Origin: Olsenella timonensis
Lineage (GTDB): Bacteria; Actinomycetota; Coriobacteriia; Coriobacteriales; Atopobiaceae
Reading direction: 5' to 3'
NCBI RefSeq assembly: GCF_900119915.1
Contig: NZ_LT635455.1
Location: 558,001 to 622,000 of the forward strand
DNA: 64,000 bases
In this document: one piece after another, positions 15,180 to 35,751 of the stretch
Position numbering within the stretch: position 1 is the stretch's first letter
Layout: the number at the start of each line of letters is the position of its first letter
Notes under the pieces: generated by a model
Databases searched by the model: none
What the model saw: the letters and a program-made list of their open reading frames with translations, nothing else
What the model was told of the DNA's origin: nothing
Made by a program: the position numbers and the translations under genes

Positions 15180-15197
15180 GGGGGGCGGGTGATTCGA

Positions 15198-18100: not shown

Positions 18101-19619
18101 GAACCGCCTCTCCGACAAGGCGTCGAGGTCCGCCGAGGCCGAGTCCGACACCCTCGCGCAGATCGCCGCCGGTACGGTGCCCCTGCTCTGCGGCCACGCC
18201 TGGCCGCTCGACCTGGTCTACCAGCTTATGCAGCGCAGGGCCAAGACCCACATGCCCAACGCGCGCCTCGCCAACATGGGCCCGAAGCTCAAGCGCGAGC
18301 TCGATCGCGTCCTCGAGCCGTACGGGCTCCGCGTCCTGCCCAAGCGTCAGTTCCGCTGGAAGAGCTGGTACGACCCCAAGGTCATGAGGACGTCTGTGCA
18401 CAGCGTCTGCGAGCCGCTGATCCGCCGCGACCAGAACGGCCGCGAGATCGCCCGCGACTACAAGCCCGCTGAGCTTGCCAACTGGGTCGACGACGTCGAG
18501 CTCGCGACCCAGGGCCGCGAGAAGGTCTACGGCTGGGTGGTGCGCGCCGAGGACTGGGACCTGTTCGAGGCTACCGGTTCCAAGCAGTTCGACCAGCACG
18601 AGGTCGTCTGGCCCGACGCGCACCCGGAGGATGGCGACGAGCCGGTCGACGACGATGGCATCGAGGCCGACTCCGCGTACGACGCCTCGCTTTACAACGG
18701 CGTCTACCTGCCGGTTCTCGCCGGCCTCGCCAAGGCGGGCTGCATGGCGCTCTCCGGCGGCCCGGTTGCGGCCCTGTCCCTCGAGCGCTGGCTCGCCGCC
18801 GGCGGGCCCTGCGTGCCCGTCGCGCTCGGCGCCGGCGCGCTCAAGGACGGCGAGGCAGGGATGCTTGACGACAACCCCGAGCTTCAGCTCGGGGCGCCGC
18901 AGGCACTCTGCGGCAGCCCGAACGGCACGGTCGTCGTCCTTCTGCCGCGCCCGGCGACCGGTCTCCTCGCGCCCCGGGCGGACGACCCGTGGCTCGACCC
19001 GCTCGCGCTCATCGTCTCCGGCCGCGCCGAGATCGCGGCGGGCAACGCGCCTGCCGTGGCGCCTGACCCCGGCCCCGACGACGATCCGACGCCCGGCCCC
19101 GGCGGCGGCGCGCCCGAGACGCCGTCGATCGACCCGGCGCGCGATGCCGAGGCCCTGCGCGAGCGCGGCCTGACGGTCGAGGAGGCCGCGCCGACCTCGT
19201 CGGACGCCCCCGAGGGCGCGATAACGCCCGACGAAACCGCAGCTCAGGGCACATGCGACGTCTCAGCGCCCGCTGACGGCGCGCACGAGGCCCCCGCGCC
19301 CTCGGGTGAGGACCCGGCCGCGAACGGACCGTCAGCGCCCGCTGAGACGCCCGTTTCGGCCGCGCCGGCGGCCGTGGAGGGCGGTGACGCGGCCGAGGAG
19401 GCCCCGGGCGCGCCCGACCCGGGCTACGAGGCCTTCTGCGCCCACGCCAAGGGCGCCGTGGAGCACTCGGGCGGCTACGTCGTCTTTGACGGTGGGCCCG
19501 AGGGCGCGATGGTCTGTCGCGAGGTGATTCCCGAGGACGAGTGGGCCGCCTATGGACGCCCGACGCGCCTTCGCGGCACGGTCGAGGTCGACGGCGAGAG
19601 GTTGCCGCTGATCGACTGA
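15198..19619 (+). CDS. D5/P4-type primase-helicase replication protein
   Basis: About 1,473 residues (1,476 if a GTG at 15189 is used). Residues ~1-70 are low-complexity. The N-terminal ~500 residues have no motif I recognise but include a cysteine- and acidic-rich segment. Around residue 797 lies the Walker A motif GDGGDGKS of DUF5906/D5-like superfamily 3 helicases, followed by LEDMDDNDLVLSTVGAYVNW and, ~65 residues on, IPCIFPVNGTPRYP, as in phage and plasmid primase-helicases. The last ~230 residues are alanine-, proline- and acid-rich and look disordered, ending in a small folded block. It probably unwinds the element's origin during autonomous replication after excision or transfer. The product is unusually long for the family. 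Confidence 0.8.
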   Translation: MPDEKLSTAQRPPEMEEAAPAPASALGTATTSNDVINDITTPHGDAQSITETNTAESPAHPGVPAPETSGSDDAWRYACALINEFASEEDYRSGDFGREYVREPDPYAINQVPVVCSRKKDCARREGAAFADRLEHVFDELDDEMQAVVRDGWAGREAARDLRSGEGSCAERASRFAGRLFHELTGGEAGSDDCARGFIECGDTLLNCFDAGCFSLGVARVCGVDLDRADPDEDDRLGRALMRSGYGAEDHRAYIPGDANPHSAAEIDADIEVEFAILAIDELSRDDGRGYVSAKEAAAKKLAEDELTACYERLRQVRRDALVAAGERVYGRDADHVTSRPPEDGEPPFAVLGQKLRLDAARQRDAIEAFQVQAEALVRALADEAGIEVQGEDANLVRGAALKGMLVAASSERLDKLPYDRPVEMKRLLQLVESGLPESSPLRETIKRHGAVLIGGDEALKRVKSRIKADPWSVAPDLDPFLRGDDGVVCWMTGAGGRLSLLLPADTERAIFRKLEETVRMKGVPLKDDGEPDLAAMARFWVKAGEQYTIEWNQAKARKLGKNDPCAKEKDPALAIKWDKYPNPACAARIIRLARDAVGRPAKLVDGIIQYVSEQGLELAQNASNGKFIEGPLRNWALEINPSADERWIAATRINLYTTLERIDTRALAKQGKIDVNAWRICDGQWYFTSSGPHAFKMRRIDPTRVSDWAAQVEDGVHLKPVGEPDEEGWYAVAEPEDKEIILPNESGEMVACRPSDLAKTWFPEDPEAGQDLLDQLIAYRIRPRNMHRMQGFAVLRGDGGDGKSLFREMNLTMALGNRRAAERDAHFSGAGLEDMDDNDLVLSTVGAYVNWPADAAQDPVCSSKGWKFLKPMSCGESVTFKVKYAEALTTSAGSIPCIFPVNGTPRYPSYGASKKRRVFDIEFAHPIPEGKKIRRLMDVAMTDEEFVTWPWWHSVKAYSTFDDGFRPNRLSDKASRSAEAESDTLAQIAAGTVPLLCGHAWPLDLVYQLMQRRAKTHMPNARLANMGPKLKRELDRVLEPYGLRVLPKRQFRWKSWYDPKVMRTSVHSVCEPLIRRDQNGREIARDYKPAELANWVDDVELATQGREKVYGWVVRAEDWDLFEATGSKQFDQHEVVWPDAHPEDGDEPVDDDGIEADSAYDASLYNGVYLPVLAGLAKAGCMALSGGPVAALSLERWLAAGGPCVPVALGAGALKDGEAGMLDDNPELQLGAPQALCGSPNGTVVVLLPRPATGLLAPRADDPWLDPLALIVSGRAEIAAGNAPAVAPDPGPDDDPTPGPGGGAPETPSIDPARDAEALRERGLTVEEAAPTSSDAPEGAITPDETAAQGTCDVSAPADGAHEAPAPSGEDPAANGPSAPAETPVSAAPAAVEGGDAAEEAPGAPDPGYEAFCAHAKGAVEHSGGYVVFDGGPEGAMVCREVIPEDEWAAYGRPTRLRGTVEVDGERLPLID

Positions 19620-19670
19620 GAGGCGGCCGGCGCATTGACTGGACGAGATTACGAACGAGAGGAGTTAATC

Positions 19671-20063
19671 GTGAGTGGTGAGTTTGAGGAGCCGCACTAT
19701 CGTCAGTCGGTATACGCCCTTGAAGAGCGTGACGAATGTCTTAGTTTGTTCAACGGATGGGCCGACGACCTCTTCCATTTGGGAAACAATGACGCGTCGG
19801 TCCGCGGGTTTATTCGAAGCGCCCTCGCTGATGGGCGGACACCGACCATGTGCGATGTCGAAGGGTGGGTCCGGCATTACTACACGGCGCTCACGCCCAT
19901 CGAAGGCCAGTACTGCGACGGCACCGCCTGTAGCGAAGAAGAGCGCAACTGCAATGAGTGTCTTGGCGGCATGGCCGTTGAGAGCCACTGCTTCCTGTCC
20001 GAGTGGTTCATACGCAAGTTTGCAGTGCGCCTCTGCAAGGAAGAGGGCATCGCAGTCGAGTGA
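19671..20063 (+). CDS. Hypothetical cysteine-containing protein
   Basis: A 130-residue protein starting at a GTG with GAGGAG at 19657-19662; an earlier TTG at 19635 has no ribosome-binding site. The C-terminal half has a cluster of cysteines (YCDGTACSEEERNCNEC, then HCF and LCKEE), suggesting a metal site. The N-terminal half is acidic and aromatic. It lies between the primase-helicase and a coiled-coil protein in the same direction. I do not recognise the family. Confidence 0.65.
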   Translation: MSGEFEEPHYRQSVYALEERDECLSLFNGWADDLFHLGNNDASVRGFIRSALADGRTPTMCDVEGWVRHYYTALTPIEGQYCDGTACSEEERNCNECLGGMAVESHCFLSEWFIRKFAVRLCKEEGIAVE

Positions 20064-20192
20064 CGACCCCGCAGGTCTCACGACCTGCGTGTCGATACGT
20101 CCGTCCCGGGGCCCGCGCCGCGTCGCGCGGCCCCGCCGGCGGGCGGTGAGCGAGTAAGTGAGCGGAAACGACTTCGAAGGAGTGACGGAACG

Positions 20193-20531
20193 ATGAGCGA
20201 CGAGATGCACGAGAGCGCGGCAACCGTGAACGCGGAGGCTGCTGCCGACGGTCACGGCGACGCGCGCGCCGAGGCCTCGGACGCCGTCGACGGCGGCGCG
20301 TGGCGGGCCGAGGACGACGAGCGCGTGGCTGCGCTCGACGCGAAGATCGCTGAGGTCAAGCGCGTTCACCGCGCGCGGCTGAAGCGTCTGAACGCCGAGC
20401 GGGACGCGCTCGTGAAGGCGGTCGAGGGCGAGCACATGCGCGCCGAGCTCGAGCGCCTGCGCGCGGAGAACGCGAGCCTCCGGGCTCGCGGCTCCGATGC
20501 GCCGAGTGCGTCAGCGCCGTCGGGCGCGTGA
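20193..20531 (+). CDS. Small coiled-coil protein upstream of the relaxase
   Basis: A 112-residue, strongly charged protein. Residues ~1-35 are alanine- and acid-rich and probably disordered. Residues ~48-95 form a coiled coil (ALDAKIAEVKRVHRARLKRL, then LERLRAENASLRA). The start ATG at 20193 follows GAAGGAGTGACGG. Its place between the replication gene and the relaxase suggests a mobilization accessory role, but there is no motif to prove it. Confidence 0.6.
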   Translation: MSDEMHESAATVNAEAAADGHGDARAEASDAVDGGAWRAEDDERVAALDAKIAEVKRVHRARLKRLNAERDALVKAVEGEHMRAELERLRAENASLRARGSDAPSASAPSGA

Positions 20532-20974
20532 CGCACGTGGCCGGCGCCCGCGCGAGCCGAGCCGTCGACGCGGCCCCTCGGGGCCGCGAGCACGGCGAGG
20601 CGAGGGCGCGGTGCGTCCGGCCGGGCGCGGCGAGGCCGCAGGAGCCACAAGGCGACGACGGCCGCAGACGCGCCCAAGGGCACGCCTCGGGGCGTGCCGG
20701 GGGTGCCCCTCGCGGCGGGGCGTTAGCCCCGAGAGCGAGGCCCATCGGGGTTTGGAGGTGAGCGGCCCCTAGGCCGCGAGCCGGAAAACCCCTATGGGCA
20801 CCAACCTTAGGGCTTTACCGGGCGCCCTGTGCGCCCACCAGGCGACCGCTCGCGCATGCGAGCACTCGGCGCGCAGCGCCCGCCCCTTTTGGGGCGCATA
20901 GGCTCGGCGCCCTCTTGGGCGCGCACGGTCTGCCGCCCGCAGGTGCGGGCGCATGGACAGGAAGGAGGCGGCAC
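20532..20974. other. Gene-free region before the relaxase, candidate oriT
   Basis: 443 bp without a supported gene. A hairpin GCGGCC-CCTA-GGCCGC is at 20762-20777. CCCTA (20790-20794) and TAGGG lie either side of a 14-bp spacer, ending near 20812. A further stem CGCCCC-TTTT-GGGGCG is near 20880. MobV relaxases nick inverted-repeat sites just upstream of their own gene, so 20755-20830 is the best oriT candidate; the nick site cannot be fixed from sequence alone. Confidence 0.5.
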
Positions 20975-23233
20975 ATGCCGCAGGTGGGAGTCGGCGTGAG
21001 CGTGATGACGCTCACCAACAACGGCGCGTCGACGAAGTCGTCGATGCCGGTGCAGAAGGCCGCGCCGGAGTTCGGCGACGAGCGCGCGTCCAAGACGGCC
21101 CATATCGACAAGACGCGCTCGGCCGGGAACACCTACGACTTTCCGGCAGGCTGCGGCACGTCGGGCGAGGCGCTGGCCGACTGGTTCGTGCAGAAGTTCG
21201 AGGACTATTCGCTCGAACAGCAGAGGGCCGGCAAGCGCAAGCCGTCGTCGCTGACGGCGGTGGGCGTCGCGTGCGTCATCACGCCCGACGAGGAGGCCGT
21301 CGCGCAGTGGGACAAGCCGTTGCGCAAGAAGTTCATGCGCGACGCGCGCGAGGTCTACGAGACGTGGTTCGGCGCGCCGCTCGACGCGTGGGCGGTCCAC
21401 GTCGACGAGGGTGCCATGGAGGAGCGCGGGCTCACGCGCGACGACGAGCTCGGCGACGAGAGCCTGCACGGGCACGGTGTCGGGTGCATACCCGACAAGC
21501 TCCCCGACGACGAGCTCCTGGTCGAGGGGTTCGGCGAGGAGGGCGCAAAGAACTTCAAGAAGCGGTATCGCGGCAAGAACGACGGCTGTCTCTACCGCAC
21601 GGGCTCGATCCTGAACGGCGGGCGCCTCAAGCTGCTTCACAACATCTTTCCCATCGAGATGGCGAAGCGCGGCTGGCGCGAGCCCGTCGACGAGAACGAC
21701 CTCGAGGCCACGGGCTGGACGGTCAAGCCGCACCTGTCCTGGGGCGAGAAGAAGGCGATCGAGGAGAAGACCGGCGAGGTCTTCAAGGAGCCCGCGCAGT
21801 CGGCGAACAAGTATGCGCGCACGCAGCGCTGGCAGCGCAAGCAGCAGGAGAAGGCCGCGCGCAACGCCGCCGATGCCGCGCGCAACGCCGCCGACGCGGA
21901 GCGCAACGCCGACATGCGGCGGGTCATCTCCGAGAACGCGGCGTGGAACGAGGAGGAGGCGCGCGCCCTCGACCGGCGCGCCGACGAGCTCGAGCGCGAG
22001 GCGCGCGACGCCCGCGTCGAGATCTCGCACGAGCACCGGCGCCTCGCTGCGCGCGAGGACGAGGCCGACCGCATGCGCGCCCGCGCCGAGGTCGCGCTCC
22101 ACGGCTATACGCCCCCGGCGGGCGTGGAGCTCGTGCCGCCCGCCGCCATGCCGCCCGAGCTGCGCGCGCTGTGGCGCCTCACCGACGGCGACGAGGGCGA
22201 CGACGCGGCCGGTGACATCCCCGGTGACCTCTTGGGCGAGGACGGCGCGCCCGACCTGGACGCGGCCAACGAGCGCGTGGACGACCTCGCCGACGAGTTC
22301 GCCCGTGAGCGCGGCTACAGGGAGGCCTATGTGGGCAAGGAGGGCGCGTGGCTGGTCACCCTGCCGCTCGAGTTCGTTCGCCAGCAGCCCGGGTACGAGG
22401 ACGTGGAGAGCTTGGACGAGCTCGCCGACGCAGACAGGCAGTACTGGGAGGAGCGGCACTGGGACGAGGCCTCCCTCCGCATCGCGGACGCCCAGCTCCT
22501 CGGGCTCGACCCGACCGTGCCGCACCCTGGCATCGACGAGCGCGAGGCCGCCGTGGAGGCCGCCCGCGCCGACGTCGAGCGCCGCGACCGGGTCGTCGGC
22601 GAGCGCGAGGCGGCCTTCGAGCGCCTGGCGGGGAAGCGCCGTAGCGTGGTCGACGCGCTCGACGCCGAGATCGAGGCCAAGCGCGCGGAGGCGGCGCGTC
22701 TCGACGCCAAGACCGACGAGACGGTTCGCTGGCTCGAGGGCGCAGTCGAGCACGTCAGGGAGGCCGACGCCCGCGTCGAGCAGGCCAAGGCCGACGCCGA
22801 GGCGACGCGCAAGGCTGCCGAGGCCGACGCCGAGCGCACGCGCGAGCGGGCGCGGGTGGAGGCCCGGGAGGGCGTCAGCTCGGCCGTCGGCGACGCCGGC
22901 GCCAAGGTCTCACGCCTCGTCTCGGAGTTCACGTCGACGGTCGTCGGCAACGTGTGCCAGCTCGCGTTCGCGACGCTCAAGGCCATGCGGGACAACATGG
23001 CCCTCGGCGACGAGTTCGACCGGGCGGCGACGACGTGCATGGCCACGCTCCATCAGGTCGTGGAGCAGGACCGTGACGGGTCGATCGCCCGGGCCATCGA
23101 GGGTAGGGCGCGCGACGTGATGAACGCCGCGTTCAGCAAGCGAGCCCGCCGCGAGGTCGTGGAGCCCGTGGTCGCGGACGACTGGGAGCCGAGGCCGAGC
23201 GGCCGCTCCCGCGACGACGGGCCGGGTCTCTGA
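20975..23233 (+). CDS. MobV-family (Pre/Mob) relaxase
   Basis: A 752-residue protein. The N-terminal ~290 residues match MobV relaxases: RASKTAHIDKTRSAGN at 37-52, the metal and catalytic motif VHVDE at 141-145, and the second histidine pair in LHGHGV (His165, His167) followed by GCIP. The spacer between HVDE and HGH is longer than in classic Pre proteins. Residues ~290-380 and ~520-660 are long charged coiled coils. The enzyme nicks oriT and pilots the strand into a helper element's conjugation channel. The ATG at 20975 follows GAAGGAGG. No coupling protein is encoded in the element. Confidence 0.85.
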   Translation: MPQVGVGVSVMTLTNNGASTKSSMPVQKAAPEFGDERASKTAHIDKTRSAGNTYDFPAGCGTSGEALADWFVQKFEDYSLEQQRAGKRKPSSLTAVGVACVITPDEEAVAQWDKPLRKKFMRDAREVYETWFGAPLDAWAVHVDEGAMEERGLTRDDELGDESLHGHGVGCIPDKLPDDELLVEGFGEEGAKNFKKRYRGKNDGCLYRTGSILNGGRLKLLHNIFPIEMAKRGWREPVDENDLEATGWTVKPHLSWGEKKAIEEKTGEVFKEPAQSANKYARTQRWQRKQQEKAARNAADAARNAADAERNADMRRVISENAAWNEEEARALDRRADELEREARDARVEISHEHRRLAAREDEADRMRARAEVALHGYTPPAGVELVPPAAMPPELRALWRLTDGDEGDDAAGDIPGDLLGEDGAPDLDAANERVDDLADEFARERGYREAYVGKEGAWLVTLPLEFVRQQPGYEDVESLDELADADRQYWEERHWDEASLRIADAQLLGLDPTVPHPGIDEREAAVEAARADVERRDRVVGEREAAFERLAGKRRSVVDALDAEIEAKRAEAARLDAKTDETVRWLEGAVEHVREADARVEQAKADAEATRKAAEADAERTRERARVEAREGVSSAVGDAGAKVSRLVSEFTSTVVGNVCQLAFATLKAMRDNMALGDEFDRAATTCMATLHQVVEQDRDGSIARAIEGRARDVMNAAFSKRARREVVEPVVADDWEPRPSGRSRDDGPGL

Positions 23234-23735: not shown

Positions 23736-23771
23736 TTGCGACGGAATGAATCTGATCATGCAACCACCTTC

Positions 23772-24116
23772 CTATCGACCGACCTCCCATGCGTCGGGCA
23801 TGACGTCGTGGATGTCCGTTTCAGAGCTCGCTATCCGTTCGAGCATCGCGACGGCGCACTGGGCCACCTCGAGCCCGACGTAGCGCGCCTTGACGTCCGT
23901 GCCGACCTCGTCCCACTCTGGCCACGTGCAGCCGTTCGGCTCTTCGGTCGAGGCGTTCCACGAGGCGGCGTAGCCGTCGAGGCTGTCCTCGATATTGAGC
24001 AGGTAACGCCTGACCAGGGCCGACGCGAGGCCGGTGACGTCCTCGAAGGGCGCGACGCGCTCGATGGCGTAACCCGCGGCCAGGCGCTTGAGCCTGGCCG
24101 TCTCCCCGGCGTTCAT
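23772..24116 (-). CDS. Hypothetical protein, last gene of a three-gene leftward operon
   Basis: A 114-residue protein beginning MNAGETARLKRLAAGYAIER. It has a helical N-terminal half and an acidic, tryptophan-containing middle (NGCTWPEWDEVG), then LEVAQCAVAMLERI. The start codon overlaps the stop of the gene upstream by 4 bp (ATGA), indicating translational coupling. Proteins of this kind accompany the two upstream genes in Gram-positive conjugative elements; no function is known to me. Confidence 0.65.
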   Translation of the reverse strand: MNAGETARLKRLAAGYAIERVAPFEDVTGLASALVRRYLLNIEDSLDGYAASWNASTEEPNGCTWPEWDEVGTDVKARYVGLEVAQCAVAMLERIASSETDIHDVMPDAWEVGR

Positions 24117-24445
24117 CGCATCCCGTCCTCTCCCGCGTCCGTGTAGTAGGCGAACTCCGGCTCGAAGGCCGGGCTCTCGAACAGGGCCTCGATCTGCTCG
24201 ACGGAAAGGCGGCCGACCATGTCGGCGCTGAACTGCCCGTTGTCCGCGAGCATCCAGGCCTTGGGCCACCACGCGGGGCGGCCCGCCCAGACGCGCTCCC
24301 AGTCCCCCTCGGATACGTACTCGCCGAGGTCGTTGATCCGGTAGACGCCCTCGAAGGGCTCGAAGCAGTCCTCGACGCAAGCCCTGAGCTCGTCGGTCAC
24401 TCCGAGGATGCGGTTCATGGTCGCCTCTCCGATTGCCTTGCTCAT
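24113..24445 (-). CDS. Conserved small acidic protein of mobile elements, paralogue A
   Basis: A 110-residue acidic protein. Its core is CFEPFEGVYRINDLGEYVS, followed by the tryptophan-rich WAGRPAWWPKAWMLADNG. It is closely similar over its whole length to the product of 31001-31333. Both its start and its stop overlap neighbouring genes by 4 bp. No catalytic motif is visible. The acidic character and its place near ssb make a DNA-mimic or anti-defence role conceivable, but that is speculation. Confidence 0.75.
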   Translation of the reverse strand: MSKAIGEATMNRILGVTDELRACVEDCFEPFEGVYRINDLGEYVSEGDWERVWAGRPAWWPKAWMLADNGQFSADMVGRLSVEQIEALFESPAFEPEFAYYTDAGEDGMR

Positions 24446-25083
24446 GCGCTGGCCCCCTTCGGTACGCGGCGCACGGTGGGCGTCGTGAGATAGTTGTTGG
24501 CGTTGTCCTCGGCCAGCATGTACTCGCTGTACATGTTCACGTAGGGCACGCCGGCGGTGTCGAGGCCGTTCACGACGCGGCCGTCGCCGACGCCGACGAC
24601 GGGGAACGCCTCGTAGCGTCCGTCGACCCGCCGCACGAATACCTCGTCGCCGGGGGCGACCTCTGTGACGGGCACCTTCTCGGCGTCGAGGTAGGCCCCG
24701 AGCCTCTGGTCCTCGGGCTGCGAGGCGTCGATCTCGCGCAGCATGGCGTCGAGTGGGTACTCGTTTTCCTCCTCGAACGGGGCGTAGGGGTACACGCGGT
24801 CGACGACCTCCCAGCCCCGGATGACGAAGATGCCGTTGTCGCCGGGGTCCATGGCCTTGTCGGTTGTGTAGCGGCTGATCCCGACGGAGAGGCCGGAGGC
24901 GCCCATGAAGTTCGCGACGACCTGGCAGAGCCTCGCCCACCCGTACTCGTCGGAGTCCGGCGGGCGGAACCCGCGCAGGTCGCAGTACTCGAGGAACGCC
25001 TCGACGCTGTCGCGCCCGCCGTTCCAGTGCAGATAGACTCCTAAGTCTCTTTTCTCGGTGGTGATGACGGCACGGTTGCCCAT
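24442..25083 (-). CDS. Conserved mobile-element protein of unknown function
   Basis: A 213-residue protein starting MGNRAVITTEKRDLGVYLHW with ribosome-binding site GAAAGGAAG. The N-terminal block (HWNGGRDSVEAFLEYC, ARLCQVVANFMGA, LSVGISRY) recurs in hypothetical proteins of conjugative elements in firmicutes and actinobacteria. The middle region (APGDEVFVRRVDGRYEAFPV) resembles a small beta-barrel. It is the first gene of the leftward operon that ends at 23772. Acidic overall; no enzymatic motif seen. Confidence 0.7.
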   Translation of the reverse strand: MGNRAVITTEKRDLGVYLHWNGGRDSVEAFLEYCDLRGFRPPDSDEYGWARLCQVVANFMGASGLSVGISRYTTDKAMDPGDNGIFVIRGWEVVDRVYPYAPFEEENEYPLDAMLREIDASQPEDQRLGAYLDAEKVPVTEVAPGDEVFVRRVDGRYEAFPVVGVGDGRVVNGLDTAGVPYVNMYSEYMLAEDNANNYLTTPTVRRVPKGASA

Positions 25084-25221
25084 GGTTTCTTCCTTTCAAT
25101 AATGAACTGCACGTTGCCGTTATAGGCGAGCGCCTGCCGCCGCTCTGCGGGTATAAGGTCGGTAATCGCCCGGACGCCCGTCTGGGCGAGTGCCCGATGC
25201 CGAGCAGCGATGGGAGCGCCC

Positions 25222-25860
25222 ATGGATGACGAGGTTGAGAAGCTTACAAAGACCGAGGTGAAGGAGCTCGGTTTCTCCGACAGGCTCATCGAGGCTCTGC
25301 TGCCCGAGCCGGAGCTGCGGGACAACCCGCGCTACCGGTACGCGGGGGCACCCATGAAGCTGTGGCTCAAGTCGGACGTCGACCGCGCCATGGAGACCGA
25401 CGAGTTCAAGGAGCACCTCAAGGTGCGCGAGAAGCGCTCCCTCGCCGCGAGGAAGGCGGCGGAGACGAGGCGTGCGAAAACGCTTGCGCGTGCCCGGGAG
25501 CGCGCCCCTTTGATTGAGGTCATTCAGGGATGGTCCGAGGACGAGATCAGGGAATCGGCGCTCAGGAGCCACTATGAGTGGGAGGTGCAGAAGGGCAACT
25601 ACTGGGACGACTCGTATCGCTGCGACGACGAGCGGACGGTATCCCGCTGGATGGTGAACTTCGTCCGCCATGAGCTCACTGATTATGACCACGAGCTCTA
25701 TGAGATGAGCGGCAGGACCGGCATCGGAGAGGTGCACCGCCTCTACCACGACGCAGTGCTGCGCGAAATAGCGAAGGCCTATCCGTTCCTCGAGGGCGAG
25801 TGCAAGCGCCAGATGATCGGGCCCTCGGATGCCGGGGAGCAGGGGGAGGGCGGCGCCTAG
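25222..25860 (+). CDS. Hypothetical protein with helical DNA-binding-like N terminus
   Basis: A 212-residue protein; an upstream ATG at 25210 would add four residues. The N terminus (LTKTEVKELGFSDRLIEALL, PEPELRDNPRYRYAGAPMKL, WLKSDVDRAM) is a repeated theme in plasmid and phage proteins where a helical region precedes a variable part. A basic helix follows (KRSLAARKAAETRRAKTLAR). The C-terminal half is rich in aromatics and histidine (SHYEWEVQ, FVRHELTDYDHELY). It is transcribed against its neighbours. Function unknown. Confidence 0.65.
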   Translation: MDDEVEKLTKTEVKELGFSDRLIEALLPEPELRDNPRYRYAGAPMKLWLKSDVDRAMETDEFKEHLKVREKRSLAARKAAETRRAKTLARARERAPLIEVIQGWSEDEIRESALRSHYEWEVQKGNYWDDSYRCDDERTVSRWMVNFVRHELTDYDHELYEMSGRTGIGEVHRLYHDAVLREIAKAYPFLEGECKRQMIGPSDAGEQGEGGA

Positions 25861-25916
25861 CCCGCCCACCCCGGTCGACTGCGCGCCAGCGCAGGTGGGG
25901 CGCGATCGTCGCGCCT

Positions 25917-26261
25917 TCACCCCTCCCTCATGTCGAGGCCGAGGTCGAACCGGGCTGCCCAAGCGAGCTGCCCGAAGCGGCCGTAGGGCAGGGCGCGGCC
26001 GACCTCGGCGAGTCCCTGAGCCTCGAGGGCGCGGGCGTAGGGAAGGCTGTCCTCGGGGACGAACGCCCAGTCGTCGCCAGGGAGGCCGTACTGCGGCAGG
26101 TTCACGGTGAGGTCGCGCCAAATGCCGTCGTCGCCCTCCTCGAGCTCGACCTCGCAGAGCTCGATGGCGAGGCGCCCGTTGCAGCCGTAGCGGTCGACGA
26201 CGGGCACGAGCAGCGGTGTGTCCTCGAGCTTGATGCAGGCGGATGTGACGACTCGCCTCAT
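25917..26261 (-). CDS. DUF4313-like protein, paralogue A
   Basis: A 114-residue acidic protein. The block WRDLTVNLPQYGLPGDDWAF followed by a helix and GRFGQLAWAARFDL fits the DUF4313 family found in conjugative elements. It is paralogous to 31713-32054. The start overlaps the ssb stop by 4 bp, so the two are coupled. Association with ssb suggests action in the early phase after transfer; function unknown. Confidence 0.7.
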   Translation of the reverse strand: MRRVVTSACIKLEDTPLLVPVVDRYGCNGRLAIELCEVELEEGDDGIWRDLTVNLPQYGLPGDDWAFVPEDSLPYARALEAQGLAEVGRALPYGRFGQLAWAARFDLGLDMREG

Positions 26262-26656
26262 TCCGCGCCCCCTCGCCCCGCGGCCGCGCGGAATGCTACC
26301 GGCGTCTCGGCCGGAATCTCCCCAGAGCGCTTGGTACGCCACTCGATCTCCTCGACCATGACCTCGACCTTGCTGCGGCGTTGCCCCTGGCGGTCGTTGT
26401 AGACGATCTGCCTCAGGTGTCCCTGGACCATGGCGAGCGAGCCCTTCGCGAGGTAGCGGGAGAGCGCGTCGGCGCGCCTCCCGAAGACCGCGCAGTCGAT
26501 GTAGCTCGGCCGCTCCTCGAACGCGCCGTCGGCGCCCTTGACGCGCTCCGTGACGGCCACGGTGAAGTTGAGGACCATCGTCCCGCTCTTCGTCGAGCGA
26601 AGCACCGCGTCGTCGACGAGGTTGCCGGAGATGGCGACGCTGTTGATGGTTGACAT
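26258..26656 (-). CDS. ssb: Single-stranded DNA-binding protein
   Basis: A 132-residue OB-fold SSB. Residues 1-105 show the usual pattern: NSVAISGNLVDDAVLRST, NFTVAVTERV, YIDCAVFGRRADALSRYLAKG and the C-terminal beta strand KVEVMVEEIEW. The tail after ~110 is short (GEIPAETPVAFRAAAGRGGAE) and lacks the acidic DDDIPF-type tip that recruits host replication proteins, as in many plasmid-borne SSBs. It probably coats incoming or replicating single strands of the element. It is co-translated with the DUF4313-like gene. Confidence 0.93.
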   Translation of the reverse strand: MSTINSVAISGNLVDDAVLRSTKSGTMVLNFTVAVTERVKGADGAFEERPSYIDCAVFGRRADALSRYLAKGSLAMVQGHLRQIVYNDRQGQRRSKVEVMVEEIEWRTKRSGEIPAETPVAFRAAAGRGGAE

Positions 26657-26964
26657 TCGGAATCCCCCTTCCATTGCAGCTCGGGCATCTCGCCCGCTTC
26701 GAGGGGGTCCCCGTGGGAGGCGCGGCTTGACGCGGCCCCGAAGTAGGTCAGATTGGAATTGATTCCCGAGAGGATCACGCGCCTTCATCGGAGGTGGCGG
26801 GAGGATTCCTGTGTCATTCCCAATTGTGTTCGCAGATGACGTATTTGCTTTCCTGTTGTAATATTCGTCTGTTCCTGGTTCAAAATAGTTTCTCCTCTCT
26901 GATACTGATTTTATCAATGATATTTCGCAATAGCCAGCAATGAACGCTTGCATTGCGCAAGACG
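26657..26964. other. Junction region between IME backbone and low-GC tet(W) segment
   Basis: 308 bp without a supported gene. Composition changes from GC-rich (to about 26750) to AT-rich (from about 26800), marking the downstream edge of the tet(W) insert. I find no IS ends or target duplication by eye. Confidence 0.5.
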
Positions 26965-28884
26965 TTACATTATCTTCTGAAACATATAGCGCACCTTGTC
27001 CAGGCGGCTGTTTGGACGGCGGGGCTGGATGACTGGCTTGCCGACAGCGGCCTGATACCCTTTCAGTTCTGTAAGGCATACGCTCTGCCCGTTGGTGTAA
27101 AAGGCCAGATCAGTACGGTATGCCTGTATACAGCGGGCGGGAATCTCGCCAGTAAAGACAACTTCATCCTTTTTTACCTGGACCGTTTCGATGGTGGCAC
27201 AGTATTTCGGTGCATCATGATAAGCCCTGGAAAGATATTCCCGGGGCGCATAGAGGGTGAAGGAGAGATAAGGTTCCAGCAGTTGCGTCCCTGATTCCTT
27301 CAATGCCTGTTCCAATACAATCGGGGCCAATGAGCGGAAGTCCGCCGGCGTGCTGACCGGACTGTAATAAAGCCCGTATTCAAAGCAAATCTTACAGTCC
27401 GTTACGTTCCAGCCGAACAAGCCCTGCTCCAGCCCGTAACGGATACCATCCCTGACAGCGTTTTGAAAACTCTGGTTCAAGTATCCCAGCGAAACCCGGC
27501 TCTCGTATTGTACACCGGAGCCAAGCGGGAGTGGTGTAACAGACAGTCCGATGGATGCCCAAAACGGGTTGGGCGGCACCTCGATATGGATGGTGTGGCT
27601 GGCTGCTTTGAGCGGCCGCTCCATATAAATGACGGTGGGTTCCTTTACCACTGTTTCAAGCTTGTATTTTTCCGACAGCAAAGCGGAAACAACCTCCAAC
27701 TGCACCCGGCCCAAAAAAGAAAGAATGATCTCATGGGTGATGGAATCCACCTCGCAGCGCAAAAGCGGGTCAGTATCCGCAAGTTGCGTAAGAGCGTCCA
27801 GCAGCCGTTCTCTTTGCGCTGCCGTTTTCGGCGCAATCGACGTCCGCAGCATGGGGAGGGGGTCCTCACGCCACCTTTTACGAGGGAGCCGGGTTGGGTC
27901 CCCTAATACATCGTTTAACCTCACGCTGTCGCTGGGAAGGATAACAATTTCACCCGGATAAGCGGTGTCTGTCCGAACAATTTCCCCTTTGGATGGAATA
28001 CGCATCTCTGTGATTTTCAGCTTTTCTCTCCCGGCCAGGGCCACCGTATCCCGCAGGCGCAGCGTTCCGCTGTATAGCCGTAGATAGACACGCCGCTGGC
28101 CGCAATCTGTATACTCCACCTTGAAAACGCTGCCGCATAGGGCGGCGCTCCCCTGTTCCCCAATCGGTTGGAACAGCCCTGTCACCGCATCCATCAACGG
28201 TTGAATGCCAAGGCCCTTTTTGGCGCTGCCATAATAGACCGGGAACAGGGAGGCGTCTTGAACCCGCCGCTGTTCCTCCCGCACAAGTTTTTCCCGGCTG
28301 ATTGGTTCTCCTGCGATATACTTTTCCAAAAATTTATCGTTATTTTCGATGACCGCATCCCATGCTTCTATGTCGGTATTTTCCTCCAGGACTATTTCCG
28401 GGGACAGCGACACCGTCTGCTTGATGATAATATCGGCGGAGAGCTTATCCCGAACAGACTGAACCACGCTCTGCAAATCAACGCCAGCCTGGTCGATCTT
28501 GTTGATAAAGATAACGGTGGGAATGTTCATTTTCCGCAGGGCATGGAACAGAATACGGGTCTGGGCCTGCACGCCATCTTTAGCGGAGATCACCAAGATG
28601 GCCCCATCTAAAACAGCCAAAGAGCGGTACACCTCCGCCAAAAAATCCATGTGGCCGGGCGTATCCACAATGTTGACTTTACATCTGTGCCACTGGAAGG
28701 AAGTGACTGCCGCTTGAATGGTAATCCCACGCTGCCGCTCCAAAAACATGGTGTCCGTCCTCGTTGTCCCTTTTTCGACGCTCCCCGGTTCTGAAATGGC
28801 TCCGCTGGCATATAGCAGGCTCTCCGTCAAGGTCGTCTTTCCAGCGTCTACATGGGCAAGAATTCCAATATTGATTATTTTCAT
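26965..28884 (-). CDS. tet(W): Tet(W) tetracycline-resistance ribosomal protection protein
   Basis: A 639-residue translational GTPase of the Tet(M)/Tet(O)/Tet(W) class. G1 is AHVDAGKTT (residues 10-18), G3 is DTPGHMDF and G4 is NKID; EF-G-like domains follow. The sequence agrees with Tet(W) throughout as I remember it (for example [13 protein letters not shown] near the start and [20 protein letters not shown] at the end), with only scattered substitutions, so I see no sign of a mosaic with Tet(O) or Tet(32). It removes tetracycline from the ribosome. Codon use and GC content are far from the host's, showing recent transfer. It is intact and has its complete leader. Confidence 0.97.
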
Positions 28885-31000: not shown

Positions 31001-31333
31001 TTACATCATGCCGTCCTCGCCCGCCTCGGTGTAGAACGCGTACTCCGGCTCGAAGGCCGGGTCGTCATACGCCGCCTCGATCTCCTCGACGCTCATGCGG
31101 CTGACCTCGTCTGACGTGAACTGCCCGTTGTCGGCGAGCATCCACGCCTTCGGCCACCAGCTCGGACGGTCGGCCCAGACGTTCAGCCAGTCCTCCTCGC
31201 TCACGTACTCGCCCATGTCGTTGATGCGGTACACGCCCTCGAACGGCTCGAACTCGTCGCGGACGCACGCCCTGAGCTCGTCGGTCACGTCGAGGACCCG
31301 GCCCATGGCCTCGGACCCTATTGCGTTGCCCAT
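31001..31333 (-). CDS. Conserved small acidic protein of mobile elements, paralogue B
   Basis: A 110-residue protein closely similar to the product of 24113-24445: both share VTDELRACV, FEPFEGVYRIND, GEYVSE, WWPKAWMLADNGQF and the YTEAGEDGM/YTDAGEDGM tail. The ATG at 31333 is correctly spaced from AGGAGGG; an ATG two codons earlier is too close. Function unknown. The two copies have diverged, so they are not a recent duplication. Confidence 0.75.
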   Translation of the reverse strand: MGNAIGSEAMGRVLDVTDELRACVRDEFEPFEGVYRINDMGEYVSEEDWLNVWADRPSWWPKAWMLADNGQFTSDEVSRMSVEEIEAAYDDPAFEPEYAFYTEAGEDGMM

Positions 31334-31335
31334 GG

Positions 31336-31707
31336 TCATCCCTCCTGACCTCGTGAGACGATTCTCTTGATGCGGTGCGCCGCCTGGAAGCAGGCCCGCG
31401 CCTGCGTGTCCAGCCACTCCTCGGCCGCGTTCGGCCGGCGCTCGCCGCCTCTCGTGCGGCGCAGCTCGCTCGGGCAGCACAGGCGCTCGGCGATGTCTCG
31501 GTCGTAGATGAGGGCGCACCCGCCCCACGAGTAGTCGTGCCACGTGGGCGCGCCGTCGAGCAGGGTCCTCTCGACGGTCGACGCGGTGAGCTCGGCGTCC
31601 CCGTCGAGGTCGGCGAGCATGTCAAGCGCGTATCGCGTGACGCCCCGGTCCCAGGCCGACCGGTCGCGGCGGGACCCGAGGGCGGCGACGACGTCGCTGA
31701 CCAGCAT
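31336..31707 (-). CDS. Conserved mobile-element protein of unknown function
   Basis: A 123-residue protein. Its central part, WHDYSWGGCALIYDRDIAER, then LCCPSELRRTRGGERRPN and EEWLDTQARACFQAA, recurs in hypothetical proteins of conjugative elements from gut firmicutes and actinobacteria. It starts 6 bp after the DUF4313-like gene ends and is followed at once by the paralogue-B gene. No enzymatic motif recognised. Confidence 0.7.
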   Translation of the reverse strand: MLVSDVVAALGSRRDRSAWDRGVTRYALDMLADLDGDAELTASTVERTLLDGAPTWHDYSWGGCALIYDRDIAERLCCPSELRRTRGGERRPNAAEEWLDTQARACFQAAHRIKRIVSRGQEG

Positions 31708-31712
31708 CCCCG

Positions 31713-32054
31713 TCACCCCCTCACGATGAGCGCGGGCGCGAGATGCGCCATGACCGCGAGCTGGCCGAACGACCCGTAGCGGGCGGCGCCGCCCATCTCG
31801 GCGAGACCCTGGCGCTCGAGCGCGCGCAGGTACTTTAGGTTGTCCGTGGGAACGAACGCCCAGTCGTCGCCGGGGAGCGCCTGCTCGGGCAGGTTGACCG
31901 TGAGGTCGCACCACAGACCGTCGTCGAGCTCGTCCTCGGGCTCGACCTCGTAGAGCAGGACCGCAGGGCGGCCGTTGGCCTCGTAGCGGCCGAGTGCGGG
32001 CGTGAGCGCGGGGGCGCCCGGGACCCGGATCTGAATCGTGGTGAATGTGAGCAT
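31713..32054 (-). CDS. DUF4313-like protein, paralogue B
   Basis: A 113-residue acidic protein with WCDLTVNLPEQALPGDDWAF and a C-terminal YGSFGQLAVMAHL, paralogous to 25917-26261. First gene of the leftward set. The start is preceded by AGAGAGGAGCCAGCC. The family is common next to relaxase and ssb genes in Gram-positive elements; its role is not known. Confidence 0.7.
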   Translation of the reverse strand: MLTFTTIQIRVPGAPALTPALGRYEANGRPAVLLYEVEPEDELDDGLWCDLTVNLPEQALPGDDWAFVPTDNLKYLRALERQGLAEMGGAARYGSFGQLAVMAHLAPALIVRG

Positions 32055-32126
32055 GGCTGGCTCCTCTCTCCGATTGCCGTCGAGGGTCCGTCTGTGGCCG
32101 CGCGTGATCGCGTGGCCCTCGTGGAC

Positions 32127-32388: not shown

Positions 32389-32396
32389 ACTGAAAA

Positions 32397-32476
32397 CCGG
32401 ATATTTACCGGATATCTGGTTTGAGGAAGAAACAAATATCCGACGAATATCTAAATAGCGCCGCTTATGCTACAAT
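32397..32476 (+). promoter_or_regulatory. parA promoter and operator region
   Basis: CCGGATAT is repeated at 32397 and 32408, with ATATCCG and CGAATATC nearby in inverse orientation (32436-32451). A -10-like TACAAT is at 32471-32476. This AT-rich stretch in GC-rich DNA looks like an autoregulated promoter of a par operon. Confidence 0.5.
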
Positions 32477-32514: not shown

Positions 32515-33102
32515 ATGCCAAAAAGGCGACATAAGAAGACGGTCACAGTAGTCAACCGCAAGGGCGGCGTCGGTAAGTCGTTCATCGCTGACGAGATCGC
32601 CTGGGCGCTCGAACGCGACGGCGTCGCGTGCGCGTTCTGGGACTTCGACGGCCAGGGAGGCACGGGGCACGAGACGAGCGATGCCGAGGAGCGCGAGGCG
32701 GCCGAGGTCTACGTCGTGGACACGCCCGGTGCGATAACCCGGCAGATGCGCGACCTTCTCAAGCAGACCGACGTGGCGGTCGTGCCCGTGACGCCCGTTG
32801 GCAGCGACGTCTCGGCGACCGAGTACACGATGGACGTGGTCGAGTCGGCGTGCCCGAAGGCGGCCAAGATCGTCGTCGTGAACGCCTGGACGCGGTTCCG
32901 CACGGCCCGGGCGTTCGAGGAGTGCGCGGACGCGTGGCGCTCTCGCGGCTGGGAGGTGCGCTACGTGCCGCACGCCGAGGCGGTGAGGCGGGCGCGCGAC
33001 GCCGGGAGGAGCGTCTGCGACGTCGACCGGCGCTGCAAGGCCGCAAGGGCCGTCTCGGAGCTTTGCGAGCGCGTCGAGGGGCTGGTGAGCGCCTGTGACT
33101 GA
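32515..33102 (+). CDS. ParA/MinD-type partition ATPase
   Basis: A 195-residue short ParA with the deviant Walker A KGGVGKS (residues 16-22), a DFDGQGG switch region, VYVVDTPG as Walker B/A' and a C-terminal helix. The small size without an N-terminal HTH is like type Ib plasmid ParA proteins. It overlaps the next gene by 8 bp. It suggests that the excised circle is actively segregated or that ParA assists mobilization. Confidence 0.88.
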   Translation: MPKRRHKKTVTVVNRKGGVGKSFIADEIAWALERDGVACAFWDFDGQGGTGHETSDAEEREAAEVYVVDTPGAITRQMRDLLKQTDVAVVPVTPVGSDVSATEYTMDVVESACPKAAKIVVVNAWTRFRTARAFEECADAWRSRGWEVRYVPHAEAVRRARDAGRSVCDVDRRCKAARAVSELCERVEGLVSACD

Positions 33103-33322
33103 CATCGTGCAGAACCTGTTCAACGACCATGAGCGCGACGCCGCCGAGCTTGACCGCTCGGCGAAGGGAAGCACGGCCAAGCGTAAGTGGCTCGCCTGCA
33201 TGAGCGAGCGCGACTACCTCGACCTCAAGAGGTGGGCCGCCGAGGACGGCGTCACAATGGCTGAGGTGCAGAGCCGCATGATCGCCTACGAGCGCAGGCG
33301 CAGGAGGCGGAGGGCGAAGTAG
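33095..33322 (+). CDS. Small ParA partner, ribbon-helix-helix-like
   Basis: A 75-residue basic protein starting with GTG inside the end of parA. The N terminus is acidic and flexible; residues ~33-60 (CMSERDYLDLKRWAAEDGVT, MAEVQSRMI) fit a ribbon-helix-helix pattern; the tail is a run of arginines. In type Ib par systems the second gene encodes such a centromere-binding protein, here probably for the repeats at 32127-32388. Confidence 0.7.
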   Translation: MTDIVQNLFNDHERDAAELDRSAKGSTAKRKWLACMSERDYLDLKRWAAEDGVTMAEVQSRMIAYERRRRRRRAK

Positions 33323-33332
33323 GCGTGCAACA

Positions 33333-33371
33333 GGGCGCCCGTTCCGGCACGGCCGGGGCGGGCGCCCTTTT
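33333..33371 (+). terminator. par operon terminator
   Basis: A perfect 9-bp GGGCGCCCG/CGGGCGCCC stem (33333-33341 with 33359-33367) with inner pairing is followed by TTTT. Confidence 0.8.
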
Positions 33372-33548
33372 CCGTGGCGTCGGCGCGGCGGTCGCGGCGG
33401 CCCGTCTCCGGGTGCTGCGGCCGCCGCCCGCTGCGCGGGCGGGCCGCCGGTGAGGGATGACGCAAGGTGGTGCGGGTGCGGGGAGGTGTTCCGGGAGACG
33501 GGCCCTTGAATCGTTTCCTTGAGCCGAATCCAGAAGCTAGAACTAACG

Positions 33549-33908
33549 TTCGTGGCTACGATGGCTGAACATGGCTGAACTTGGCTGAGAAAAGTTTAGC
33601 CATACTTTTTTGGGTGTCTACCTGCGAAAACTCTCTCTATTTTCTTCTATGGCTACAATGGCTGAACTTCATAAGAAGTATCGCGTGTATGGAAAAACGC
33701 TTCGGATTGTCAGGGAGACACGCGTCTAGGGGCGTATGCTTGGGTCATTCACTCGCGTGTGTTTTAGTGAGTCGCTGCCTGTTCGAAAAGTTCAGCCATT
33801 GTAGCCATACCCCGGAAATAACCCCTAAAAATGACCATCTACCTGCGGAAACGGTATGGCTGAAACCCGTTTAGCCAAGTTCAGCCATCAATAGCCATCT
33901 CAGCCACG
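33549..33908. repeat. Inverted/direct repeat tract built from TGGCTGAAC units
   Basis: About twelve copies of (A)TGGCTGAAC or variants (GGCTAC, GTTTAGCCAT) occur in both orientations over 360 bp. They include direct copies at 33561, 33571 and 33581, and an exact 21-bp inverted repeat (33649-33669 with 33788-33808). The outer ends GTTCGTGGCT and AGCCACGAAC are also inverse. The tract is much more AT-rich than its surroundings. It is probably a replication origin or regulatory site of the element; no gene is supported here. Confidence 0.65.
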
Positions 33909-34131
33909 AACACATGTTCTCTTAGAACGACGCGGGAAACGGGATCCTGGAAGCGCCTTCGGGGCGCGGTTCGGGAATCCGTGCCCGGGGGGACTCGCTG
34001 CACGCCTCATCACTGCGTCATCCCTCTCGAGCGGCCCGAGGCGCGCAGCGCCTCGGCGGCCGCAGGACGGGAAAGGGCGCCCGCTCCCCGTCCCCGGGAA
34101 ACGAGCGCCCTCACGTGCCGCTGCCGCCGCG

Positions 34132-35751
34132 TCAGCCCTCTGCGGGCGCGGCGCCGGTCTTCCACCGGAACTCGACCGCCTTCGAGGGGTCGAGCCCGGC
34201 GCCCCGCGCGTTTCTCCGCGCGTTTTCCGACCGGTCGGTCTTGGTGAGGTAGACGTCGCACAGGAGGTCGACGACGGCGCGCTTCGCGTCGAGGTCGGCC
34301 TCGCGGAACGCCTCGGCGGGCGCGACCTCGCGCACGATCGCCGGCGGCTCCGGCATGTCGGCGAGCGCGCGCAGGCGCGCCTCCGCCTCGCGTATGGCCG
34401 CCTCGGCGACGTCGCGGGCGCGCTTCAGGTCCTCGGCGCGGATGAGGTCGCGGGCGTAGTCGGCCTCGGCGCGCTCGATGCGCCCGCGCTGGCGCGCGAC
34501 CTCGGCCTCGATGTCCTTCACCTCGCCGGCGTCGCCCTCGCGGCGCACGCACACGAGGCTCGCGAGGTCGGGGCGGGAGAGCACCGCCTCCATGACGCTC
34601 TCGACGTAGGCGTCCACGAGGTCGGCCTTGCGCGCGACGTGGCCGGTGCACGTGTAGCAGACCCCCTGCAGGTGCACGCGGCCGCCGCAGGCGGGGCAGC
34701 GGAAGAGCCCGCTGCCCAGGTGCGTGCGCGCCGCCGCCGGCCCCTTGCCCGAGATCTTCGGGCGCCGGTCGGGGTCGTCGAGCACCGCCTGCACGCGCTC
34801 CCAGTCCTCGGCGGGCACGATGGGCTCCCACTGCCCGCGCACCCACTCGCCGGTCCCCTCGTCGCGCACACGCCGGTTGTGCCAGGGCGCGCTCTTGTCG
34901 CCGTTCTTGCCGACCTCGGTGGGGATGTAGGTCGCGAAGCCGGCGTAGCGCGGGTTCCTGAGCATCTTCAGTACGGCCGAGCTGTTCCAGGGCTGCTCGG
35001 CGGGCAGCTCGTGCGGCGGGCGGTCGGGGTGGCGCTCGTTCCACTCGACGGCCGCGCGGTAGCTCGGTCGCGGCAGCGTGGGCACGCCTGCGGTCAGCTC
35101 GTCCCTCTCGCCCGAGAGCGCCCGGGCGATGGCCTTGAGCGACGCCCCCGCGAGGAAGGCGGCGAACACGGCGCGCACGGCCTCGGCCTCGTCCTCGATC
35201 ACCTCGCCGGCGTGGGTGTATCCGGTCGGGCGGTTGCCGACGGGCACGCGCCCGATGCGCGCCCGCTGGCGGTTGGCCGCCCTCTGGCGCTCGCCCTTGT
35301 GCTGGGATTCGTTCTCGGCGACGGCGACGCGGATGCGGGCGACGAGCAGGTCGCCCGAGCGCGAGAGGTCGAGATCCATTCCGTGCGCCTCGACGACGTG
35401 GCAAAGACCTGCTTTGGCGAGCTTGACCCATTGGTCGAGCTGCCCGGGCTGGCGCGTGAGGCGGTCGAGGTCCCACACGTAGACGCGACCGACCTCGCCG
35501 GCGCACACGTCCGCAAGCAGACGCTCGTAGTCGGGGCGGCGCTTGCGGGCGTCGGCCGCCGAGATCGACAGGTCCGAGTAGACGCGCTCGGCGCTCACCT
35601 CGACGCCGTCTCTGGCCGCGCGGTCGCGACACTCCTTCTCCTGGCGGTCGAGCGCGAGCTCGCCCATACCCTGGTCGAGCGAGATGCGGACGTAGATCGC
35701 CGCGTCTCGGTCTACTGGTTTAGTTGTCTCGTTGCTGGATTTCCGCCCCAC
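34132..35751 (-). CDS. Large serine recombinase (integrase) of the element
   Basis: A 539-residue serine integrase. The resolvase-like catalytic domain starts AAIYVRISLDQGMGELALDR with Ser24 as nucleophile, then YSDLSISAADARKRRPDYERLL and VYVWDLDRLTRQPGQL. The recombinase domain follows (IGRVPVGNRPTGYTHAG, AVLKMLRNPRYAGFATY), then a zinc ribbon (RCPACGGRVHL with CYTC) and a coiled coil at ~410-460, as in large serine recombinases. It starts with GTG at 35751, 94 bp from the right crossover point. It directs unidirectional attP x attB integration into the HTH gene. Confidence 0.95.
   Translation of the reverse strand: MGRKSSNETTKPVDRDAAIYVRISLDQGMGELALDRQEKECRDRAARDGVEVSAERVYSDLSISAADARKRRPDYERLLADVCAGEVGRVYVWDLDRLTRQPGQLDQWVKLAKAGLCHVVEAHGMDLDLSRSGDLLVARIRVAVAENESQHKGERQRAANRQRARIGRVPVGNRPTGYTHAGEVIEDEAEAVRAVFAAFLAGASLKAIARALSGERDELTAGVPTLPRPSYRAAVEWNERHPDRPPHELPAEQPWNSSAVLKMLRNPRYAGFATYIPTEVGKNGDKSAPWHNRRVRDEGTGEWVRGQWEPIVPAEDWERVQAVLDDPDRRPKISGKGPAAARTHLGSGLFRCPACGGRVHLQGVCYTCTGHVARKADLVDAYVESVMEAVLSRPDLASLVCVRREGDAGEVKDIEAEVARQRGRIERAEADYARDLIRAEDLKRARDVAEAAIREAEARLRALADMPEPPAIVREVAPAEAFREADLDAKRAVVDLLCDVYLTKTDRSENARRNARGAGLDPSKAVEFRWKTGAAPAEG

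Follow-up and report, generated by a model that had tools for sequence, protein, structure and literature searches.

What does a dense, gene-free tract of short repeats do inside an integrative mobile element of Olsenella timonensis? The window analysed here is the whole 64-kb stretch at positions 558001-622000 of a 2.18-Mb single-contig genome, and the tract occupies its positions 33549-33908, 14 kb from the gene of a primase-helicase (15189-19619, plus strand). A sequence-only reading had proposed a double-strand origin bound by that protein, or an incompatibility or copy-control site. Judging from sequence comparison of the tract, its flanks and the proposed initiator among related elements, we consider it probable that the tract is an iteron replication origin of the element, with an exchangeable specificity that is read by the primase-helicase.

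Units and layout of the tract

The tract holds 14 TGGCTR units (TGGCTA or TGGCTG, on both strands) in 356 bp (33553-33906), which bears out a dense repeat in both orientations and raises the earlier count of about twelve. The whole window contains 45 such units, and its densest 360-bp stretch is the tract. The 9-mer TGGCTGAAC, with up to one mismatch, has 17 matches in the window against 10.8 expected, a number reached in 5 of 100 shuffles; it is thus not clearly over-represented window-wide, and the clustering of the units is the exceptional part.

Seven units run forward and seven reverse, and all of them fall into mirror pairs (7 of 7) about a single axis at about 33730, with a tolerance of 2 bp. 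Among 20,000 random layouts of the same unit number and span, the maximum was five pairs and seven never occurred. The left outer cluster (33553-33602; forward units at 33553, 33562, 33572 and 33582, reverse unit at 33597) mirrors the right outer cluster (33857-33906; forward unit at 33857, reverse units at 33872, 33882, 33892 and 33901), and the left inner unit pair TGGCTACAATGGCTGAAC (33650-33667, plus strand) has its exact inverse in the right inner pair (33790-33807, minus strand) across a central spacer (33668-33789, GC 49%). The inner pairs lie within an inverted repeat that is exact, as first described, and 22 bp long instead of 21 (33648-33669 and 33788-33809), and the outer ends of the tract are indeed inverse, with 72-nt arms at 72% identity. 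A CRISPR array was rejected since the units occur in both orientations and at uneven spacing; the spacing is irregular, as had been noted, but the layout is more ordered than the earlier description allowed.

The tract is AT-rich in relation to its surroundings (GC 47.5% vs 65.9% for 14475-35899) but not, as had been written, in absolute terms. Its most AT-rich 40 bp (33638-33677, 67% AT) are those over the left inner pair of units. As a single strand of DNA the tract folds 10 SD more stably than its 100 shuffles, as expected because of its mirror symmetry. Against an origin, the cumulative GC skew has a local maximum here, not a minimum. The only listed ORF within it is 97 aa from a TTG, the longest frame without a stop in 33401-34050 has 101 codons, and no gene is supported, in agreement with the first description.

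That description overlooked two direct copies of a core, TCTACCTGCGRAAAC, which begin 221 bp apart: copy 1 (TCTACCTGCGAAAAC) at 33617-33631 and copy 2 (TCTACCTGCGGAAAC) at 33838-33852, both on the plus strand. Being direct, the two copies break the mirror symmetry of the tract.

Exchange of tract and primase-helicase among related elements

A search with the primase-helicase at E-values up to 1e-20 matched 7 of 297 Coriobacteriales genomes, the own genome included, giving six relatives of the element: G016, G021, G028, G105, G013 (Thermophilibacter provencensis) and G167 (Collinsella provencensis). Four relatives with tracts unlike the window's share its left flank (33333-33493) at 89-98% identity: G016 (89%), G021 (90%), G105 (94%) and G028 (98%, over 99 bp only, up to a contig end). 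The right flank (33988-34131) is 93-96% identical in G021 (93%, from 33988), G016 (95%, from 34011) and G028 (96%, from 34013), the two flanks of G028 lying on two contigs; that of G105 gave no match, and G167 gave short, weak matches to the flanks. A flank search of 395 genomes returned five strong matches (own, G016, G021, G105 and G028), one of lesser strength in G013 and numerous weak, GC-rich ones, and a search with the tail in 65 genomes found G105 and G167.

Between these flanks the tract is exchanged. Four unit types were found: TGGCTR (window), TGTAAY (G021 and G105), TGTCCCA (G016 and G028) and GAGAC (G013 and G167). Tracts of one type are 87% (G021-G105), 96% (G016-G028) and 98.5% (G013-G167) identical, and tracts of different types cannot be aligned except, in the window, G021 and G013/G167 types, over 24-28 nt at the core; in the window, the part aligning with G013/G167-type tracts is the stretch around core copy 2. 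The two-core layout with its 221-bp spacing recurs, with a different unit, in C. provencensis and T. provencensis, and the G016 and G028 tracts have no clear core, at most a degenerate one. Mirror pairs were counted in six tracts (window, G021, G105, G016, G028 and G013); the five tracts from relatives have 5, 5, 4, 4 and 4 pairs, numbers matched by 1, 1, 47, 40 and 101 of 20,000 random layouts, respectively. The first three types follow the same left flank; near the fourth there are a tRNA-Met gene, at about 0.4 kb, and an SSB gene, at 0.4-0.5 kb.

The two-core pattern had 15 matches in genome contigs, two of which (L219, T. provencensis, and L230, C. provencensis) are these elements; the other 13 belong to other organisms by title and were set aside. 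Viral contigs gave one match to the pattern and none to the primase. No tract occurs within 1.5 kb on either side of the related recombinases of G011 (48%) and G242 (42%), and two Collinsella plasmids with a ParA match have no two-core tract. The Collinsella plasmid NZ_OY725718.1 carries one exact single core (4495-4509) just past the 3' end of a relaxase gene.

The primase-helicase is exchanged in a similar fashion. Its first 75 and last 144 residues are kept in the relatives (60-83% and 78-91% identity, respectively; the G167 record is incomplete there), and its middle (aa 76-1332; 15414-19184, plus strand) changes with the tract type. The proteins fall into four classes: the window alone, G021-G105 (87%) and G016-G028 (82%), both over the whole protein, and G013-G167 (96% over 611 aligned residues, the G167 record having gaps). 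Between classes there are long alignments at 20-46% identity or short matches at the conserved ends. The window middle has no match at all in four of the six relatives, and the window protein is 46% identical to that of G013 over 1013 aa.

Unit type and primase version correspond one to one in all seven elements, across the four types. Primase and tract share a contig in the window, G021, G105 and G167 and lie on separate draft contigs in G016, G028 and G013, where one element is assumed. Three unit types have two members each and the window type has one, so that its pairing rests on the others. From its G016-class primase the G028 tract was predicted before being read, and the contig then showed five TGTCCCA units and five inverse ones. 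With independent sorting of primase and tract, the two partitions would coincide in 1 of 105 cases, an optimistic figure given the shared ancestry within pairs. The mosaicism of the window and G021 is, as far as sequence can tell, the stronger argument: nine compared genes are 89-100% identical (the recombinase 96%), and what differs or is missing is the primase middle, the tract, ParA, a small protein and the genes at 20193, 20915, 29775 and 30114. Of the 18 genes or parts of genes from the window that were compared, only the middle of the primase is both type-specific and present with the tract in all seven elements. The sequence-only reading had named a tract absent or unrelated beside a retained replication gene as grounds for giving up the origin; among the relatives a changed tract goes with a changed replication gene, and the proposal survives.

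The primase-helicase is accordingly the best candidate for the protein that would read the unit. The large serine recombinase (34132-35751, minus strand) was excluded from this role, since three tract types share it at 96% identity and it was found in no other. The genes at 20193 and 20915 were excluded as well, at 75-81% identity between two types. Gene 30114 had no match in any relative examined, and family and structure searches with gene 20915-23233 gave nothing convincing.

The recombinase gene lies 0.2 kb from the tract, as might be expected if the tract were its attachment or accessory site, or a transfer origin (oriT). We hold either role to be highly improbable: the recombinase keeps its 96% identity in three elements with tracts of other types, and no match to it turned up in the regions covered of G105, G013 and G167, which carry tracts. 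In addition, none of the genes scanned was recognisable as a relaxase, and gene 20915-23233 is conserved at 81% identity in G016, an element of another unit type.

The main rival to the primase-helicase as unit reader is the partition gene pair beside the tract, a ParA-like ATPase (32515-33102, plus strand) followed by a 75-aa protein (33095-33322, plus strand). The tract would then be a centromere (parS/parC), with the 75-aa protein binding the units and ParA moving the excised element to daughter cells. The pair adjoins the tract (the small gene ends at 33322, the tract begins at 33549), and ParA varies with the tract type in three types (99% for G021-G105 and 99.5% for G016-G028, against 46-54% between types). 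A related small gene (40-41%) follows ParA in G016 and G028, and the tract contig of G013 encodes, about 9 kb from the tract, a protein related to the small one (51% over 35 aa). For the fourth type, however, which has tracts, neither a ParA homologue nor a ParA-type Walker A motif was found in 68 kb of contiguous G167 DNA or in the two G013 contigs examined, so the tract would also occur without its ParA. Beside ParA in G021 and G105, no relative of the small protein was detected. The par genes moreover have type-specific repeats of their own directly upstream (by eye), and the conserved 160-bp flank separates them from the tract. In the window those upstream repeats are CGGATAT copies at 11-bp spacing (32396-32451), perhaps the par operator or centromere. 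On this evidence a centromere appears unlikely.

Repeats of CAAACGCC type adjoin a relative of the 75-aa protein in G013 as well (L009, 1741-2050; by eye), a possible centromere with its binding protein. Elsewhere in the window, the element carries a gene for tetracycline resistance by ribosomal protection (TetM/TetW/TetO/TetS family; 26965-28884, minus strand) and seemingly two related blocks of DUF4313 proteins and neighbours (24119-26216 and 31002-32119). Both align with one and the same stretch of G021 and of G167, the first of the two identities being about 74-78% and the second 87-89%, and in G021 a block like 23752-26806 is located elsewhere, inverted.

The core sequence in chromosomes

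Exact TCTACCTGCGRAAA was present in 32 of 60 genomes searched, the own genome included, and a reversed-pattern control occurred once, in the own genome. After sites with less than 70 bp of flank and duplicates were dropped, 71 core sites were counted, including both from the tract; of these, 31 are centred in a symmetric inverted repeat of at least 11 bp, compared with 2 of 582 control windows, and some of the 71 are orthologous or duplicated and hence not independent. The arms of the palindromes around the core vary between sites. In viral contigs the core occurred in at least 120 stretches, which by our own estimate is near chance for a 15-mer and was not used as evidence. The tract and nine other core sites had no match in Rfam at E-values up to 1.

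The own genome holds a family of REPIN-like palindromes of about 130 bp with ends CATTATCTGGGTACTTTTT and no evident target duplication (by eye), found in 12 places (G000:C1, e.g. 209577, 357236, 902228, 1239998, 1581502, 1593658, 1670948, 1851069 and 1965198); ten are intact palindromes, and seven of the ten have a central ACCTGC in either direction (by eye). Core-like sequences also lie within promoter-like stretches, including an exact single core in G161 (L342, 1503-1517; both by eye). In G034 (L017), two copies of one core palindrome, with arms like TGTCACTTACAGGTGCC, stand 552 bp apart, perhaps by local duplication. A dense tract of mixed orientation in G063 (L043, about 1380-1640; by eye) has the window's core surrounded by units of GGTAGCCA and GGGGAGTAAAT and is possibly the origin of a different element. 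A hairpin with GGGGTCGGGTCCGTTTTCGCA (L011, 1349-1434) had three Rfam matches, to human miRNA models and below the cut-offs, presumably by chance or as an artefact.

The recurrence of the core in chromosomal palindromes raises the question of what binds it, and a host factor is our best guess. Tentatively, and with the odds against it, the core may be the site of a conserved Coriobacteriales host factor that partners many site-specific DNA-binding proteins, giving a constant core with exchangeable arms. Just as speculative is a two-part code, in which the partner would be the primase-helicase in the origins of mobile elements and other proteins at chromosomal palindromes. The G016 and G028 tracts, with their degenerate core at most, count against a host factor. 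If constant core and exchangeable arms are real, they would make up a new kind of DNA site common to mobile origins and chromosomes, and a true two-part code would account for elements that swap arms and initiator and mostly keep the core. What tract and palindromes share is a puzzle that these sites make testable.

Single-core palindromes with other arms, scattered over chromosomes and hardly all origins, would also suit a regulator of the host or the element (copy control, incompatibility or silencing) that binds the units and makes the tract a regulatory site, not a replication start. Co-exchange with the middle of a primase encoded 14 kb away is unexpected for a general regulator, however, and a tract search of 392 genomes of the order (391 and the own) returned the own copy and two core-only matches, with no similar tract elsewhere. 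A purely regulatory site thus seems quite unlikely to us. The iterons of an origin often serve incompatibility or copy control as well.

The tract might also be a REPIN- or MITE-like repeat insertion without function for the element, given that the core is common to REPIN-like chromosomal palindromes and that RAYT transposases occur in 40 of 60 genomes, the own one included. An exchanged tract nevertheless sits at the same place in all four flank-matching relatives, and among the RAYT matches listed, the exact core was found at 0 of 30 loci (up to about 3.4 kb each), with one match at two mismatches. We find such an insertion scarcely credible. The core as a RAYT/REP tag was rejected on its absence from the 30 RAYT loci read.

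The proposed origin and known systems

A profile built from five primase sequences (one truncated) matches PDB 7ola (DNA primase, 797 aa), which we take to be SaPI5 Rep, at E 3.4e-21, and weakly also other SF3/D5 helicases. TIGR01613 ('P4 family') matches the primases of three relatives (2.4e-18, 1.4e-9 and 2.9e-6), below its curated cut-off, and these three also match PHROG DNA primases. The window protein has a weak PHROG DNA primase match (E 0.0013) and the Walker A motif GDGGDGKS; neither Pfam, at E-values up to 1, nor NCBIfam has a match for it. AlphaFold modelling of aa 651-1184 from the single sequence reached a pLDDT of 33, and the model was not used. Profile comparison thus places the primases in the P4/SaPI5-Rep/D5 helicase group, members of which start replication at iterons. 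The 7ola profile points to an initiator with a Primase_Cterm/SF3-D5 helicase domain, and short iterons lie in the same element.

We propose that, once the element is excised and circular, the primase-helicase, as a self-loading initiator of SF3 type, would recognise the TGGCTGAAC units through its exchangeable middle. It would assemble on the two mirror-image half-sites of seven units each, probably as two facing hexamers, and melt the DNA near a core, possibly at the AT-rich 33638-33677, which begins 7 bp after core copy 1. The opened DNA would then recruit the host replisome. The core beside each half-site may be bound by something that stays the same when the unit changes, probably a host factor. 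The centre of the tract, at 51% AT, is not strikingly AT-rich, which counts against an origin. Co-variation across the seven elements supports the pairing with the primase-helicase that had been suggested at the outset, but not the 'double-strand' part of that suggestion: nothing was found for rolling-circle replication, and an iteron origin opened by a self-loading helicase would fit better than a rolling-circle double-strand origin.

If this is right, related elements carry four interchangeable initiator/origin pairs, and origin recognition of the P4/SaPI5 type can be tested by swaps. The tract would also be a candidate replicon for Coriobacteriales, and an element of this group with a resistance gene of the Tet(M)/Tet(W) type may replicate by itself.

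The literature searched, with few subscription journals and parts of PMC3733652, PMC7145576 and PMC12904643 among it, gave no description of the tract or core. REPINs and GTAG-tagged REPs resemble the chromosomal relatives of the core, which lie between inverted, hairpin-forming arms (PMC3733652, in the part available), but the core was not beside the RAYT genes read, and here the arms vary and the core stays.

In satellite phage P4, the alpha protein combines primase, helicase and origin recognition in one protein. The likeness to alpha (ori1/crr) lies in the three relatives that match TIGR01613 below the curated cut-off; P4 differs in its units and layout, and the window protein has no TIGR01613 match.

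According to the sections of PMC6092414 available, the origins of phage-inducible chromosomal islands (PICIs) lie immediately 3' of the gene for the initiator and consist of two iteron sets with an AT-rich region between them, segments with these origins drive autonomous replication, and E. coli PICIs have four allelic Pri-Rep proteins. Two iteron sets around a central region, as in EcCICFT073 and other E. coli PICIs, recur here as mirrored sets. The window candidate is not immediately 3' of the initiator gene, where no repeat or iteron array was found (19550-21000), and has no evident AT-rich centre; the tract was not classed as a PICI origin because the defining position 3' of the initiator gene was tested and found to differ.

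The Rep of SaPIs and the Cch2 of SCCmec both recognise iterons (PMC7581432, in the part available). SCCmec resembles the window in a serine recombinase gene beside the iteron region and in a D5-type helicase that binds iterons specifically; it differs in having only three direct 5-nt iterons and an origin beside the helicase gene. The likeness to SaPI Rep/ori consists of an integrative element and a helicase of the same group (7ola, E 3.4e-21; Primase_Cterm primase-helicase). SaPI origins lie directly downstream of rep, unlike the tract, and the window adds units in mirror order and an accompanying shared core; replication here is a proposal. As an account of these likenesses and differences, the best explanation would be a tract that works like the origins of SaPIs and P4, but far (14 kb) from the gene of its initiator.
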